Assembly (NCBI GenBank): GCA_011754535.1
Contig: JAAQVN010000001.1
Coordinates: forward strand, 3,224,001 to 3,288,000
Length of the DNA: 64,000 nucleotides
Source: Enterobacter asburiae
Lineage (GTDB): Bacteria > Pseudomonadota > Gammaproteobacteria > Enterobacterales > Enterobacteriaceae
Direction of reading: 5' to 3'
Shown: in pieces, positions 48,121 through 61,875 of the stretch
How the letters are laid out: each line of letters starts with the position of its first letter
How positions within the stretch are numbered: the first letter of the stretch is position 1
Translations under genes and position numbers: made by a program
Notes under the pieces: generated by a model
What the model was told of the DNA's origin: nothing
Seen by the model: only the letters and a program-made list of their open reading frames with translations
Databases searched by the model: none

Positions 48121-50085
48121 ATGAAGCCTAAACTGTATTCATATGTTCGTTTTTCATCAGCTAAGCAACGTGACGGAAACTCACTTGAACGTCAGCAAGA
48201 TACTGCTGCAAAGATTGCTGAACGTTATGATCTTGAGCTGGATAGCACCGCATACCACGATCTCGGCATGTCTGCTTTCAAAGGTAAAAATGCTTATGAA
48301 GGTAAGCTTTCAGAATTCATCTCTCAGATAGGGAAAAAGGTTCCTAAAGGATCATGGTTAGTTGTAGAAAACCTTGACCGCATTAGTCGTGACGATGCCT
48401 GGAGTGCTTTAGACATTTTCAAAAGCCTTCTGAAGAAAGGAATTATCGTTGTAACCGGAATGGATGAGAAAGTTTATAAGTATGCAGATGTAAAGAATAA
48501 TCCAACTGACCTGATCATCTCCCTATTGATGTTCACTCGAGCACACGATGAATCACTGACGAAGAAAAATCGAGTGGAAGCACAAGCTCGTACTCTGATC
48601 AGATATAACCTTTCAAGGCAACCGGGAACAGCAGCAAAAGCAATCGAATCAATCGGGCAAAATGTATGGTGGGTTGATACCAAATCAGGGAACGTTGAGC
48701 CTCACCCTGTTTACTACAATACAGCACAAAAAATAATCGAATTAAAACAGAGCGGCGAAACATTGCTGGGGATCCAGCGGTATCTTAACGAACATTACCC
48801 AGCACCTAAAAAAAGAGTCTATAAAAATCAAGAAGGCAACATACAACCACCAAAAACTGAGAAATGGGGTAAGCACTTACTTAGAACATTTTTGAACCCA
48901 ACGGTTCATGGACAAAAAACCTTTACTCTGGATAAACGGGATGAATCAGGCGCGGTTATTTACGATACTGATACAGATGAGCCTCTTAAAGAAACATACA
49001 CGATCCCAGACTACTACCCTGCCCTGATGTCAGAGATTGATTATCTAACGCTTTCACAGTTAGACCATCACCGCGCTGTCACTCGCAGTTCATTCAATCA
49101 TCCAGAAGGAAATCCTGAACCAGAAATCCCATTACTTTCAGAACTCGGTATACTCTTTTGCGGGAATTGTGGTTCATTCATGTTCAAGTCGGGTTCAAGT
49201 AAGAACAAGTACCGTTATATATGTGGTTCAAAGATTGTTCAGGGTAAACCATGTGGCAAGAAAGGATTCACGTCATATCAGCTTGAACATGCAGTTTTGC
49301 AACTTATCGCCGATCATGTTTGGACTAACCATCTAGAAGATAAAACAGATTGGTATAAATCAGAGATTGCAAAAGAATCAGAGAGAATTGAGAAGCTGCT
49401 TAAATTAGCAATTTTGACAGATGATATTGATGCCCTAGCAGAGCAGATAAACGATCGTAAAAAGATAAAAGCGCAGCTAGAAAATGAGTTCAAACGGTAC
49501 AAGATTAGCAGATCAGAAACCCAAACCTCTGGATGGGAGCAATTTAAGCATTTCGATGTGCACGATACGAAAAATCCTGATCGTAAGCGAATCCGTTTGA
49601 GGGTAAGGCAAGCTATCAAGCGCATCGATTGCTATGACATAAATGATCGATACGGTCACTTTTCAATCTTATTTGCCGACGATAAAAAGCAAAGAATAGC
49701 TATCAAGTTCAACCGCAACCGTTCACCCGGCACCACGTACGTCGAAAGTCAAACGATCAAAAACCATGACCTAATCAAAACGCAAGGGCTTGTACTTCAC
49801 TCTTTCATTGATGAACTTATTGATCCTGAAAAATTTGCCAGTCAGCTCAAGAAGGATCAAGAGGCCAGCATTCTCAAACCTACATTTATAACCGAGCTAG
49901 AGGAAGGCCTACATCAAGAGATAGAAGGTAAAGTTGCAACATATGTGGTTACGAGCAATGAGAGCGGCAAAGCGACCGTAATCATCGATGGAGTTATACA
50001 TGACATTAACTCATTGGAAGATATAGATAAATTCGAAGTTGATAAAAAACATGTTCTACTTAACCCCCAAACAAACCATCGGTAG
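48121..50085 (+). CDS. Large serine integrase
   Basis: Site-specific recombinase of 654 residues, probably the enzyme that inserted the island into yeiW. The catalytic resolvase domain is at residues 1–150, with the nucleophile Ser12 in YVRFSS and the ENLDRISRD motif. The recombinase domain spans about 190–320. A zinc ribbon has Cys at about 347, 350, 368 and 378 (LFCGNCG). A coiled-coil follows (about 410–470), then a long C-terminal extension. AAGGTAAG lies 9 nt before the ATG. An excision-directionality factor was not recognised. Confidence 0.92.
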   Translation: MKPKLYSYVRFSSAKQRDGNSLERQQDTAAKIAERYDLELDSTAYHDLGMSAFKGKNAYEGKLSEFISQIGKKVPKGSWLVVENLDRISRDDAWSALDIFKSLLKKGIIVVTGMDEKVYKYADVKNNPTDLIISLLMFTRAHDESLTKKNRVEAQARTLIRYNLSRQPGTAAKAIESIGQNVWWVDTKSGNVEPHPVYYNTAQKIIELKQSGETLLGIQRYLNEHYPAPKKRVYKNQEGNIQPPKTEKWGKHLLRTFLNPTVHGQKTFTLDKRDESGAVIYDTDTDEPLKETYTIPDYYPALMSEIDYLTLSQLDHHRAVTRSSFNHPEGNPEPEIPLLSELGILFCGNCGSFMFKSGSSKNKYRYICGSKIVQGKPCGKKGFTSYQLEHAVLQLIADHVWTNHLEDKTDWYKSEIAKESERIEKLLKLAILTDDIDALAEQINDRKKIKAQLENEFKRYKISRSETQTSGWEQFKHFDVHDTKNPDRKRIRLRVRQAIKRIDCYDINDRYGHFSILFADDKKQRIAIKFNRNRSPGTTYVESQTIKNHDLIKTQGLVLHSFIDELIDPEKFASQLKKDQEASILKPTFITELEEGLHQEIEGKVATYVVTSNESGKATVIIDGVIHDINSLEDIDKFEVDKKHVLLNPQTNHR

Positions 50086-56504: not shown

Positions 56505-57122
56505 ATGATGAATATCCGTATCTACTGCCGTGCATCAACTGAAGGCCAACATGCTGATCGTGCATTAGTTAGCCTTCGCGAATTTGCGCAAAGCAAAAAC
56601 TGGTCGGTTGCCGGAGAATATATTGATAATGCAAGTGGTGCGAAGCTAGAACGCGTTGAACTCATGCATCTACTGACGGAAGCACAGCCCGGTGATCTAC
56701 TTCTTATTGAATCGATTGACCGTCTTAGTCGTCTTCAACATGAAGAATGGACTGAACTCAAAGCTACGCTGAACAGTAAAAGACTGGTTATTGTATCAAT
56801 GGATTTACCAACAAGCTGGCAGATAGTTGAAATGTCCGGTAACGACCTTACCAGCGGCATTCTTCGGGCAGTCAATGCTATGCTGATCGATATCCTTGCG
56901 ACAATGGCACGTCAAGATTATGAGACACGGCGTAAACGTCAGGCGCAGGGGATCGCGAAAGCAAAACAGGCAGGTTTGTATAAGGGGAAAGAAAAAGATC
57001 TGGAAGCCCGAGCGACAGTTCGCGAAATGCTGGTGCAGAACGTTAAACCAGCTCACATAATCAAAGCGGCGGGTATCAGTCGCGCCACATTTTACCGAAT
57101 CAAGAAGGAGTTAATAAGCTAA
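56505..57122 (+). CDS. Small serine resolvase/invertase
   Basis: A 205-residue site-specific recombinase of the resolvase–invertase group. Catalytic Ser11 is in YCRASTEGQ, the ESIDRLSR motif follows near residue 72, and the E-helix is near 120–145. The C-terminal helix-turn-helix is in HIIKAAGISRATFYRIKKEL. Such enzymes resolve replicon dimers or cointegrates, or invert DNA. The ATG at 56508 is an equally good start. Its 3' end points at the 56-bp palindrome 150 bp away. Confidence 0.9.
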   Translation: MMNIRIYCRASTEGQHADRALVSLREFAQSKNWSVAGEYIDNASGAKLERVELMHLLTEAQPGDLLLIESIDRLSRLQHEEWTELKATLNSKRLVIVSMDLPTSWQIVEMSGNDLTSGILRAVNAMLIDILATMARQDYETRRKRQAQGIAKAKQAGLYKGKEKDLEARATVREMLVQNVKPAHIIKAAGISRATFYRIKKELIS

Positions 57123-57191
57123 TTAGTTTAGCTCGGACTCGAATCGACAGTTTTAGCAGTTAAACTTCAATCAAATCTAAACGCCCACAAT

Positions 57192-57364
57192 AAGTGATGA
57201 GCAGTCAGGCTTCTCTATTGAATAGATTCTAGTTGGTGTCATCACTTAATAATGAAGTGAAGCAGACCAACGAATCGTAACAGGAAAGCCCATTATACAC
57301 GTGTATAATGGGCTTTCCTGTTACGATTTGGCGAACTTCGCTGAAAGTCCGCAGTAAGCGAAGT
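57192..57364. other. Telomere-like region: nested inverted repeats around the 56-bp palindrome
   Basis: This gap between the convergent resolvase and GIY-YIG genes has no gene. Besides the central palindrome it holds TAAGTGATGA (57192–57201) with its complement at 57239–57248, and ACTTCGCT (57335–57342) with its complement AGCGAAGT at 57357–57364. In N15 the telomerase site is likewise flanked by further inverted repeats (telO), so these may be accessory sites; that is inference. Confidence 0.5.
57273..57328. other. Perfect 56-bp palindrome resembling a telRL protelomerase (telomere resolution) site
   Basis: Both 28-nt halves are exactly complementary, with no loop; the axis is between 57300 and 57301. 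The 13 nt next to the axis are GCCCATTATACAC. The N15 telRL half, as I recall it, ends GCCCATTATACGC, so 12 of 13 positions agree, and the N15 site is also 56 bp long. The central hexamer, which TelN-type enzymes cut around, would be CACGTG instead of CGCGCG. The outer 15 nt per arm differ from N15. A terminator is unlikely because there is no loop and no T-run. The core match plus identical size is hard to explain by chance. No protelomerase gene is in the window. Confidence 0.8.
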
Positions 57365-57449
57365 GCAGTGGTCAACAAAAACTGGCCACACCTTTAGTGT
57401 TTCCAGGAGAATCGTTCTGATTCATTCGGCCTCAAGCTACGATTACCTT

Positions 57450-58226
57450 TTAGTAATCGAAATTTGGTGAATACTTCACAGGAGACATTGCCCCTTTCTT
57501 TCTGAGGTCATCAGGGATCTTCTTACCAAGATAGAGCTGTGCAACTTCATGAGATGCCGCGCCTCCCCGAAAACCAAAGCGTGAACTTTGAGTAGCTTCA
57601 AACTCATCATCTTCATCCCATTGGCGCATTTCAGGAAAGTTATCACGGGTAGATTTTAACCACTCATCAGCTATATATACCCCCCTGACAATTCCTTTTA
57701 CTGTAGCCAGGATAACTTCAGCTTTGCTTGCGCGTTCGAGGCTTACACGCCAGCTGAATCGAACTGCATCATAGAGATCAATATCCTTTGAACTTCTGTT
57801 AACAGATATCATCATAGCTTTGTGCTTAAATTCAACTGTCTCAGGCTGGTACAATGCGATTAGTTCTTTGATATGTGCAGCACCATACTCGTTACTGCCA
57901 GCACCATTCATGATGTTGGTCAAACCTGGGTAAGCATCGATTAGAGCAGCCTCCACCTCGTAAGCAGTCTTTTCATCGGCAATACCATGCCGATGGATAA
58001 CATGGATGACCTCCAGACCAGTTAATCTAATCTCACGAAGTTGCTTGAGTTTGTTACTAAGTAGTTCATCATCAGTGGCAGCCACTTCACCGCGCATGTG
58101 AGCAAAAACGCGATTACCTTTCCCCTTACCCACGTAAAAAGTACTGCCATCTCGTGGATCAATCAGTCGATATACATACCACCCAAGATGTTCGATTACT
58201 CCCGGAGGGAACTCATTAATATCCAT
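57450..58226 (-). CDS. LEM-3-like GIY-YIG nuclease-domain protein
   Basis: A 258-residue protein whose N-terminal GIY-YIG domain opens [10 protein letters not shown] (residues 15–24) and [14 protein letters not shown] (30–43), with Arg39 and a Glu near 91 (YEVEAALID) as expected catalytic residues. This spacing is typical of the LEM-3/COG3680 branch, to which eukaryotic ANKLE1 also belongs. It therefore probably cleaves DNA. The C-terminal ~140 residues are not recognised. It ends 122 bp from the telomere-like palindrome and reads toward it. Confidence 0.8.
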
Positions 58227-58577: not shown

Positions 58578-59459
58578 CTAATCATCAAGAGAATTAATAT
58601 TAGAAATTTTGTTCAACTCTGTCAAAAAGTCTGGCTTATACTTTAGAAGCCACTGTAGGATTTTTGGGTTATCGAGCAGGCTAGTAATATGTGTTTTTAC
58701 AATTACTAACTTGAGGGTGTTCACACCATAAGTCTCCTTGAGTTTCTGCGTGTCAACATGAATTTGAGCCATTTCTCTTTCAAGCCTGTCTAACATCTTT
58801 CTGCGACCAGCAGTATCAGTATCTAAATTTCCAGATGGTCTCATTAACAAATTCGGAGGTGTATTATGAAGCAAAGAAAGTGCAAAATTACTACTGAAAT
58901 TTTCAACATTCATCATTAATTTTGAACACTCAATCTGCCTCATTGGTTTCATTTTCTTCAGAATATAGAATGTTGCTTTAGGGACGTGGTGGTTAGCGAA
59001 TGTATGAATAACCTCGGGAGATATACCATTTAGCACTCTTATTTTTCCTCTAATAGCATCTACCGATATGTTGAGTGCCTGGCCTAATTTTTCGATTGGT
59101 ATTCCGGAATTAAGAGCTTCTTTAATCATTCTCTGCTCTTGTATAATATTTATTCTATTTACTCGGCTATTAGGTGTGAACGTATCATAAACGCTTGATA
59201 TTATACACTTAACTTTACTTTCACCTAAATCTTTCAGAGCCTCAACTCTGAGGTGACCATCAAGAATTTTCATATGATTTTGCACACTATCTATAAAAAT
59301 AACTACAGGTTCTACCAACCCAACCACTTCGAGCGAGGATTTAATCTGCATATACTTTGTGCTTAGCTTAAAGTTAGAAGGAAGGACTTTAGTCTGTATA
59401 AGTGATTCAAGTTTGAAAAAAACCGCGTCATTATGAAAGCAGTAATTAATCATAATCAT
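58578..59459 (-). CDS. ParB/RepB-like protein, third gene of recombinase–ParB–ParB operon
   Basis: A 293-residue ParB-fold protein. The ParB N-terminal nuclease-like domain includes GLVEPVVIFID and KILDGHLRVEALKDLG (the GHR-type box reads GHLR, about residues 73–76). The HTH follows around IPIEKLGQALNISVDAIRGKIRVL. The C-terminal region resembles plasmid RepB-type partition proteins. It overlaps the preceding gene by 4 bp. No ParA ATPase gene is seen, so classical partition is doubtful; a DNA-binding accessory role to the recombinase is possible. Confidence 0.8.
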   Translation of the reverse strand: MIMINYCFHNDAVFFKLESLIQTKVLPSNFKLSTKYMQIKSSLEVVGLVEPVVIFIDSVQNHMKILDGHLRVEALKDLGESKVKCIISSVYDTFTPNSRVNRINIIQEQRMIKEALNSGIPIEKLGQALNISVDAIRGKIRVLNGISPEVIHTFANHHVPKATFYILKKMKPMRQIECSKLMMNVENFSSNFALSLLHNTPPNLLMRPSGNLDTDTAGRRKMLDRLEREMAQIHVDTQKLKETYGVNTLKLVIVKTHITSLLDNPKILQWLLKYKPDFLTELNKISNINSLDD

Positions 59460-60343
59460 AATTCCTCATGTTTACTATTAATTATTAAGTTAACATGCTC
59501 AAGCATACCTTCCTCTTTTACCAACTTCAGGAATCCTCCGTCATTCATAATCTCATTAATTATTTGTTTAGCTAAAATTATATTCCCCTCAACAAACAAT
59601 GCTTTTTTCTTTATTTTTTTATGACTATCAATGTTCTCCTGATAAAGTTTTGTTAGGTCTTCCGTTGTAAGCTCCCTCTTCTTCTTTCCATATCCAAAAC
59701 TTGATCCAATAAAACCTTTCAGACCTTCATTTCTGGCATCAAGAATAGCTCGTATTTTTATAATATCTTTATGCTTTATCTCACCCTTTTCAAAGGCTTG
59801 GACAAAAAGTTCCTGTGCTCCTTGATGGTCTGTTTTAGCAATTTCTACAGCCAGAGAAATTGGTATTTTCCCTGACTCAACAGCAGCGAGTAGTTTGTTC
59901 TCTGCTTTATTAATAAGCATGGTTATACTGCTTATCCACCCATATGAAAACCCCGTAACTGTTGATATTTCTTTATCGGTTAACCCTTCTGCTTTCATCT
60001 CTTTTATTCGATTGAACTGTTCGCCAGCTCTTGGATTAACACGAGCCATATTTTCAATCAAACTCATTAGGTATGCCGTTTCATCATCAATATCGATGAT
60101 GAAAGCCGGGATCATCTCCTCATTTAGATTAATCACAGCCTCAAGTCTCCCCTGACCACATACCAAGGCGTATTCATAATTTTTATCATTAATCCTTCTG
60201 ACAGTAATTGGTTTTCTTAAACCACTTTTATCAATACTTTCAATTATCTCTCTATGTTTGAATTTATTTCTTGAGCGTGGATTTATAATTTTAATTAATG
60301 ATGTTTTTATTAATACAATTACTTCAGGATTGTTATTCATCAT
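59456..60343 (-). CDS. ParB-like protein, second gene of recombinase–ParB–ParB operon
   Basis: A 295-residue protein with a ParB N-terminal domain: IIESIDKSGLRKPITVRR and CGQGRLEAVINLNEE, where GQGR replaces the usual GERR/GHRR box. Next come LMSLIENMARVNPRAGEQFNRI and an HTH around LTDKEISTVTGFSYGWISSI. It overlaps both neighbours by 4 bp (60340–60343 and 59456–59459). It may bind a centromere-like site or help the recombinase. The ENxxR motif supports a true ParB relative. Confidence 0.85.
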   Translation of the reverse strand: MMNNNPEVIVLIKTSLIKIINPRSRNKFKHREIIESIDKSGLRKPITVRRINDKNYEYALVCGQGRLEAVINLNEEMIPAFIIDIDDETAYLMSLIENMARVNPRAGEQFNRIKEMKAEGLTDKEISTVTGFSYGWISSITMLINKAENKLLAAVESGKIPISLAVEIAKTDHQGAQELFVQAFEKGEIKHKDIIKIRAILDARNEGLKGFIGSSFGYGKKKRELTTEDLTKLYQENIDSHKKIKKKALFVEGNIILAKQIINEIMNDGGFLKLVKEEGMLEHVNLIINSKHEEL

Positions 60344-61875
60344 GCTGCCCTCATAGGATAATGAGATAATAAATCTTTTAGAATGTGAAGGTCATCAAAA
60401 CGAAATAACTCGAGTAAAAAACTATTATTCTCTTTCAAAGAAAGGAGGTTTTCTATTTTTTCCAAATGAGGGAGGATGTAATAATCAACAATTTCAGTAT
60501 TACGTTCATTCATTCTCATCACAATGCTGATATCAGGTGATAAGCTTCGCTCCAGTCTAACTATCCAAGTAAGCTTCCCTGACTTCATTGCCTTGCACCT
60601 GGATGGCACGACAGATATCTTAAGGTTACCGTTGATAGATATTAAATTATCAGTAGTCACACTTATATTACTCAAGGCTAAAAAACCATATATCTTTTTA
60701 ATTTCTTCAGAGTGAAACTCACGCAGATTTTTATTAATACGAAGATAAGTATAATCTTTTTCTGGTGTATAGCCTATCAAATGATAGGCATTAATCAAAC
60801 CACCAAAGCGATGTGATATAGTGCAACTCGAAGGTCCCGTTGGATCTTCATTAATAATAAATCCAGAGAGTTTACCATGTTGCCGTAATTTATCCTTCAG
60901 GTAATCTAATATATCATTATCAGAAAGATGGGCACTTCTATTAAAAATAATATGCTGTGCTAATTGAAATATTTCTTCAGAAATTATAGGTTCTAAAAAG
61001 CCTTCGTATTTAACCCATTCACTCTCAGGGTTAATTACCCGCTTGCTTTTCAATTTAGCCGAAGCTTTGTTGTAAATATAGTCCCCAGTCAGTCTTCGAT
61101 TAGTCAATATTGCATGAACCTTACTACGAGTCCACAGCCTAGTCTCACAGCGAGTGCGTTCCTCACGATTAAGGGTTTCAGCGATAAGATATTCATTAAA
61201 AGAATCAAGAATAAAGAGGTTGAATATTTTTTTTATGATGTTTATTTCTTCATTTGGACCATGTACCAAGACGACTCTGTCGGTTTGCAGGCTTTTTCTT
61301 TCTCCCGCTTGGAGTACGAATTTATCTTTCCTTTCACTATCGACTAGTTTGCGTCGCAGCCCATAACCAGGTACCCCTCCCTGATAAAAACCTCTCCGGA
61401 CCAAATTTACATGTCCGGCAAAAACCTTTATAGATAAGTTTCGGCTGTACGCGCCAGCAGCATACCTTAAAGCAGGCAGAGTAAGCATCTGAATTTCAGG
61501 CGAGTTTTCAGGCAGATTTTCTGCACAATAAATGATTTTTACACCATGAAACTTTAGAAGATAACTATAATATCCTGCTTCATCGTTGTCCTGAAACCGT
61601 CCGAATCGGCTGACATCATACACAAGAAGAGCTCCGACGTTTAACTCTCCGGTCACAACGTCTTTGATTAGCCTTTTGAAGTTATCTCTTCCGATAGCAG
61701 AGACACCGCTTTTTCCTTCATCATCATAGATCCTGACAATCTTCATATTGTGATCATCCGCATATTTCTGGATGAATTGGATCTGATTATCAATTGAATA
61801 TTGTTGATGTTCAGTAGACATCCGAAGATAGGCAGCAACTTTAATACTCTGTTTATTATCACTTTTTATGCTCAT
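60340..61875 (-). CDS. Large serine recombinase, first gene of recombinase–ParB–ParB operon
   Basis: A 511-residue recombinase. The resolvase domain (about 10–160) has nucleophile Ser20 in YLRMSTEHQ and the motif DVSRFGRFQ. The recombinase domain (about 180–320) includes GYGLRRKLV and TRSKVHAILTNRRLTGDYIYN. There is no obvious zinc ribbon, and the C-terminal ~200 residues differ from the integrase at 48121. The 4-bp overlap with the first ParB gene implies one transcript and joint function. It may be a mobile module in its own right. Confidence 0.9.
   Translation of the reverse strand: MSIKSDNKQSIKVAAYLRMSTEHQQYSIDNQIQFIQKYADDHNMKIVRIYDDEGKSGVSAIGRDNFKRLIKDVVTGELNVGALLVYDVSRFGRFQDNDEAGYYSYLLKFHGVKIIYCAENLPENSPEIQMLTLPALRYAAGAYSRNLSIKVFAGHVNLVRRGFYQGGVPGYGLRRKLVDSERKDKFVLQAGERKSLQTDRVVLVHGPNEEINIIKKIFNLFILDSFNEYLIAETLNREERTRCETRLWTRSKVHAILTNRRLTGDYIYNKASAKLKSKRVINPESEWVKYEGFLEPIISEEIFQLAQHIIFNRSAHLSDNDILDYLKDKLRQHGKLSGFIINEDPTGPSSCTISHRFGGLINAYHLIGYTPEKDYTYLRINKNLREFHSEEIKKIYGFLALSNISVTTDNLISINGNLKISVVPSRCKAMKSGKLTWIVRLERSLSPDISIVMRMNERNTEIVDYYILPHLEKIENLLSLKENNSFLLELFRFDDLHILKDLLSHYPMRAA

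Follow-up and report, generated by a model that had tools for sequence, protein, structure and literature searches.

The window analysed here, a stretch of 64,000 nt (64 kb) of Enterobacter asburiae DNA, contains a short non-coding cassette with a large palindrome, situated between a gene for a Pin-like serine recombinase and a convergent gene for a LEM-3-like GIY-YIG protein; the coordinates of these features are collected in Table 1. Elsewhere in the window, a large serine recombinase and two RepB/ParB-type proteins are encoded in a run (58578-61875) and another large serine recombinase is found at 48121-50085, and the same genome holds a second, partial Pin-like recombinase gene region (88%; L087, G000 contig 1, 1754767-1755094).

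Table 1. Features of the palindrome-bearing cassette and its neighbourhood (positions in the window)
Feature	Position	Strand	Remark
Pin-like serine recombinase	56505..57122	+	neighbour outside the cassette
Left boundary repeat, degenerate copy of GTCCGCTNTGAGCGANNAGC	57183..57202	+	15/20
Conserved non-coding cassette	57185..57362	+	~178 bp; homology to E. coli copies reaches 57368
Second invariant block TCACTTAATAATGAAG	57242..57257	+	identical in 7/7 aligned rows
Perfect 56-bp palindrome, telRL-like	57273..57328	.	28-nt arms, 0 gap
22-bp core CCATTATAC-ACGT-GTATAATGG	57290..57311	.	part shared with TelN-linked telomere sites
Central hexamer CACGTG	57298..57303	.	N15-type sites: CGCGCG; by analogy (PMC3558466), the stretch expected between the cut positions
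Right boundary repeat	57347..57366	+	17/20
Remnant similar to IS3-family DNA	57363..57445	.	abuts the cassette
LEM-3-like GIY-YIG protein	57450..58226	-	neighbour, convergent with the recombinase

An inverted-repeat search upheld the description of the palindrome in the initial annotation as perfect and loop-free over 56 bp (28-nt arms, loop 0, 100% pairing). Arms of 8 nt are the most that any other loop-free palindrome of the window attains, the maximum over 30 first-order Markov sequences of 64 kb being 10 nt. The core CCATTATACNNNNGTATAATGG occurs only once in the whole 4.96-Mb genome when 3 mismatches are tolerated; in shuffles of the window, at least one match with up to 3 mismatches arose in 3 of 100. 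The palindrome is positioned at about 3.281 Mb, in the interior of a 4.85-Mb contig.

The palindrome had been likened to telRL, the telomere-resolution site of phage N15, and the arms were compared using the N15 letters of locus L041. The window arm equals the N15 arm at 19 of 28 positions and, as had been claimed, at 12 of the inner 13. The claim of equal length holds for the 56-bp palindromic core of telRL (PMC12624138) and fails for perfection, the N15 site being imperfect with mismatches at 2 of 28 positions. Like telRL, the window site is a large palindrome holding CCATTATAC....GTATAATGG; between the presumptive cut positions it has CACGTG and not CGCGCG, and it is carried inside a chromosomal contig and not by a linear phage-plasmid. 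The centres of three sister copies are CACATG (Klebsiella), CATGTG (Kluyvera, same strand) and CAAGTG (virus contig L043), all of them asymmetric.

The palindrome forms the core of a non-coding cassette of ~180 bp that was found at six loci with 79-95% identity over about 160-240 bp: this chromosome, E. coli, Klebsiella variicola plasmids, Kluyvera cryocrescens (L010) and two contigs of a virus collection (L035 and L043), which, to judge from their ORF lists, may be of P2-like and lambdoid phage type. In E. coli, 18 of 5,426 genomes carry it on the chromosome (83-85% identity) at one shared locus, the 1,001-bp surroundings being at least 99.5% identical in 17 of the 18 carriers and matching over 683 bp in the remaining one; the island of one carrier that was opened begins with a tRNA-Leu and an integrase. 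Three Klebsiella variicola plasmids carry the cassette at 79% identity. The present genome was the sole carrier of the full cassette both in an even draw of the family (1 of 392 genomes) and among 394 genomes of the order. A Citrobacter plasmid contains a more diverged, near-perfect palindrome that matches over 52 bp only and has GGGCTTTTCTGTT, and the short stretches that matched the cassette's left half in three genomes of the order (G556, G471 and G527) look like chance.

Comparison of the window with the E. coli copy revealed 32 differences in 184 bp, none of which falls in the inner 42 bp of the palindrome (32 of 142 positions outside it, 22.5%; Fisher P = 1.3 × 10−4). Over the six loci, variable columns numbered 1 of 38 in the inner part, 2 of 4 at the centre, 8 of 14 in the outer arms and 30 of 101 in the flanks; covariation between the arms over seven rows was not significant, with 84 of 500 shuffles reaching the observed value. 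Perfect symmetry is confined to the window copy (3 to 6 of the 28 positions are mismatched at each of the remaining five) and is not a family trait of the cassette. The earlier argument that perfection in the face of SbcCD speaks for selection is weak, because the sister copies are imperfect palindromes and persist as well. These data also bear on the possibility that the palindrome is a dead relic, a fragment of a telomere site captured by accessory DNA and carried passively, which would agree with the altered centre, the asymmetric centres of three sister copies, the absence of an enzyme nearby and the rarity of the full cassette in the family and in E. coli. We regard passive carriage as unlikely, though not negligible, since the inner 42 bp remained the same as in the E. 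coli copy while the rest diverged by 22.5%, and the window copy is a perfect palindrome where its sisters are imperfect.

The pattern used in the search fixed the core only and left the outer 15 nt of the arm free, so that these outer positions constitute a separate test of telomere likeness. Each of the five sister loci has, on one side, an outer arm that equals a telomere arm at 12 of the 15 positions, a level reached by 7 of 20,000 random 15-mers drawn from the fetched loci; the window's own outer arm equals a telomere arm at just 9 of 15, as do 738 of 20,000 random 15-mers. In the E. coli, Klebsiella, Kluyvera and virus-contig copies, one arm starts with AATCAGCACA and equals the best telomere arm at 23-24 of 28 positions. 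When the Klebsiella copy was compared with 50,697 phage records, 11 matches were obtained, the best nine of which were N15/phiKO2-type sites: five are N15 or phiKO2 records in which the stretch is annotated telRL, and in four others, including phage Kpn74 with the best E-value (2 × 10−7), the corresponding stretch is unannotated; the remaining two matches were unrelated. Such E-values overstate the evidence, because a palindrome counts twice in the score. The two arms of the E. coli-type copies are unlike each other at outer positions 6 and 7, where left and right likewise disagree in L029 and L039, both TelN-linked sites. Furthermore, GAAC occupies positions 5-8 of one flank in all six copies and in 5 of 15 distinct telomere flanks; the best match of the copies to telomere flanks is 6-7 of 10, with 7 or more of 10 reached by 960 of 20,000 random sequences, and taken alone this likeness is only weakly suggestive.

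Among 84,980 species genomes, the exact core was found in eight stretches, four of them enterobacterial: one in Pseudocitrobacter, one at each end of a single Pantoea contig (telomere-phage sites) and the Kluyvera cassette, TelN-like genes being present on the Pantoea and Pseudocitrobacter contigs. Three of the other four have imperfect or AT-rich surroundings, and the fourth, in a Bacteroidales metagenome-assembled genome (L007:3169-3190), is a perfect loop-free palindrome of 42 bp with 21-nt arms and the core GCCCATTATACAGCTGTATAATGGGC; tblastn detected no TelN-like gene in the 8-kb stretch around it. The shared core in this palindrome, which we leave unexplained, counts against a telomere reading and is a weakness of it. 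For stretches centred on CGCGCG, a TelN-like gene was present in 19 of 29 (several from the same records), mostly ~180 bp from the core; second telomeres or contig ends may account for part of the remaining 10. CACGTG-centred 18-mers in four virus contigs (L076-L079) were set aside, as they lack the CC...GG extension and have promoter-like or AT-rich surroundings.

Two further observations concern telomere sites in general. A 47-kb Pantoea stewartii contig with a TelN-like gene carries telomere-type cores near both ends (L005:8-29 and L011:6960-6981) with an asymmetric centre (TCGC/GCGA). In four contigs of the virus collection (L014, L025, L032 and L038), a telomere site forms the centre of a perfect palindrome whose arms extend over 2.2-6.8 kb, a structure that perhaps reflects read-through of hairpin ends or replication intermediates.

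A different account of the same stem, less probable but to be taken seriously, makes the palindrome a bidirectional transcription terminator, or a hairpin at mRNA ends, within an intergenic repeat cassette, its telRL likeness reflecting convergence on GCCCATTAT...ATAATGGGC. At four of the six loci (window, E. coli, Klebsiella and L035, not L010 or L043) the cassette lies between convergent genes or ORFs, and the strand with the palindrome folds much more strongly than its shuffles (z = -8.8). The palindrome shares the AAAGCCCATTAT...ATAATGGGCTTT stem with bidirectional intrinsic terminators of the AAAGCCC...GGGCTTT type, and hairpins of this kind (up to 3 mismatches) occur in 10 of 295 genomes of the order, this one included, compared with 1 for a reversed control pattern; an A or T run of at least 5 stands beside the stem in eight of the nine hairpins opened (one per other genome), one of them (L092) has the inner 12 nt exactly, and the diverged Citrobacter palindrome likewise has the motif noted above. 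Given these similar hairpins with their A/T runs and the convergent loci, the inner stem alone is no proof of a telomere. However, the palindrome differs from such terminators in lacking both a loop and A/T runs and in its longer, 28-nt arms; no terminator-like site was called there, GGGC being followed by TTTCC (tail TTTCCTG) with no T-run, and TCAGCACA in the outer arm of the sister copies points, like the best phage matches, to telomere sites. An Rfam search of the region gave nothing above the gathering score and only sub-threshold matches to unrelated families, so that a known RNA family was rejected.

The search for the cognate enzyme was negative. The protelomerase family (PF16684) had no match in this genome (1 of 14 control genomes was positive), in any of 61 genomes of the genus, or in the Kluyvera carrier, the Klebsiella plasmid record and the two virus records, and none of the eight fetched cassette stretches contained a TelN-like gene. 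The E. coli carriers were searched for telN-like DNA rather than with the family profile; the 18 cassette-bearing and 18 telN-bearing E. coli records had no strain name in common (two telN records being nameless), which is uninformative because the expected overlap was 0.06. A working telomere-resolution site of this replicon would have in its favour the perfect palindrome with the telRL core; it is scarcely credible and was rejected, because the genome and genus gave no protelomerase match and the site lies inside the 4.85-Mb contig, and for the same reasons no linear replicon ends at the palindrome in this genome. Both observations that the initial annotation had itself named as telling against its proposal were, formally, made: the protelomerase family gave no match in the genus or in the carriers searched, and the palindrome recurs in unrelated contexts. 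The assignment of the palindrome to the N15-type telRL family in the initial annotation is nevertheless likely, the resemblance extending past the inner core in the sister copies, and a working site in this chromosome is not supported; what remains is a palindrome like a telomere site without its enzyme.

The adjacent gene was considered as a source of function, in that the palindrome might be the recombination site of the Pin-like serine recombinase, a resolvase-family recombinase whose gene ends 150 bp away. We rejected this very improbable relationship on the contexts of the other copies, the annotated E. coli and Klebsiella cassette loci having no such adjoining gene, and on distribution, as the recombinase gene region is present in 5 of 61 genus genomes and the cassette in just one.

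A copy of GTCCGCNNNGAGCGANNAGC, frequently followed by GGAC, stands at either end of the cassette; these repeats have the pattern GTCCGC...GAGCGA...GC, and both are degenerate in the window. Four other genomes of the genus carry the neighbouring recombinase gene, and one of them (G424) keeps the left flank and then shows a single boundary repeat and no cassette match, that is, a one-repeat empty site; in the other three the flank is different. For the six relatives of the right flank that were opened among the matches listed (five plasmids and one other), the homology sets in no more than 8 bp from where the repeat starts in all six, and one of these (L054) also has the left flank in common with the window, with other DNA in between. 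Upstream of the Kluyvera cassette, and separated from it by an ORF, is the E. coli right flank. Matches to the boundary repeat are scattered over 9 of 394 genomes of the order. From this arrangement we infer that the cassette probably moves among accessory regions by insertion or recombination at the GTCCGC...GAGCGA...GC repeats. As an observation in its own right, the hairpin repeat GTCCGC...GAGCGA...GCGGAC is scattered in enterobacteria (L061-L065, L067, L068, L071, L072 and L054-L059), where it marks the edges of accessory segments that have been exchanged in the six opened relatives; no name for it was found in the literature search.

A trace of the core was also detected in a CRISPR array of 18 repeats in a genome of the same family (G315, contig 41, L049:1501-1532), one spacer of which holds a CACGTG-centred core followed by telomere-like sequence. 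The four plasmid matches of this spacer that ranked highest by coverage × identity were Enterobacter plasmids (27/30), and the two that were opened both have the CGCGCG telomere core, one with an annotated protelomerase beside it. The G315 genome had no protelomerase match, and for the protospacer no exact TATAATGGGGTATTTTGATA was present in the virus-contig collection (viral_contigs) and no full match in plasmids. The spacer suggests that such sites may travel on elements that bacteria target.

Known enterobacterial small intergenic repeats and insertion cassettes include ERIC, BIME and BoxC. The present cassette resembles these in being short, non-coding and intergenic with short flanking repeats, and differs in that its core occurs once in this genome and is telRL-like. 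Identity of its boundary repeats with BoxC/TMECO was rejected, as they misfit the consensus given in PMC4666352. With the telRL/tos sites of N15, phiKO2 and similar telomere phages the cassette shares the 56-bp palindrome scale, the CCATTATAC....GTATAATGG core plus GCCCATTATAC, the outer TCAGCACA on one side of five sister loci and GAAC in one flank. In contrast to those sites, it has no protelomerase gene ~180 bp away, is centred on CACGTG instead of CGCGCG, lies inside a large contig here and in plasmids or other virus contigs elsewhere, and is bounded by GTCCGC repeats.

Our best reading is an orphan, mobile telomere-resolution-like site. The cassette recurs at six loci with a conserved inner palindrome and boundary repeats, and the records searched gave no protelomerase match. 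That it stems from telomere sites is likely, judging from its core, from the outer arm in the sister copies and from the best phage matches being N15/phiKO2-type sites. We give roughly even odds to the full statement that the palindrome is the core of a ~180-bp cassette probably derived from telRL of N15-type linear phage-plasmids and carried by a genome with no detected protelomerase. The orphan cassette is the new element; the open-access literature searched yielded no paper on such a telomere-site cassette.

Published experiments indicate how such a site might behave. A chromosomal tos in E. coli allowed linearisation upon N15 lysogeny, and tos alone had no noticeable effect in the same assay (PMC6393302); TelN requires its cognate 56-bp core, and in vivo only cognate ends are protected (PMC12624138); sealing depends strictly on the six bases between the cuts, and TelK cleaves a foreign centre without sealing it (PMC3558466). 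From this behaviour of tos, TelN and TelK it is predicted that the cassette would be silent alone, and bound and perhaps cut on entry of an N15-type phage. A dimer of the incoming phage's protelomerase would bind to the inverted arms and could cleave the six base pairs at the centre; if these were those of N15, cutting would give two sealed hairpins and a linear replicon, and with the CACGTG centre the cut might stay unsealed. As a speculative extension with a slim chance of being correct, enterobacterial chromosomes, plasmids and prophages may share a mobile orphan telomere site that turns the protelomerase of an invading phage against the phage or the host replicon as a decoy or suicide substrate, CACGTG allowing binding and cutting without sealing, so that linear phage-plasmids could not establish.

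Should the cassette prove to be a terminator merely resembling a telomere, it would caution against assigning telomere sites on the strength of a short core. If, on the other hand, phage protelomerases bind the cassette, a carrier infected by a linear phage-plasmid could have its own chromosome or plasmid opened or broken at the site. Linear and circular replicons would then interact in a new way, possibly as a defence, and the finding would bear on the origin of linear bacterial replicons.
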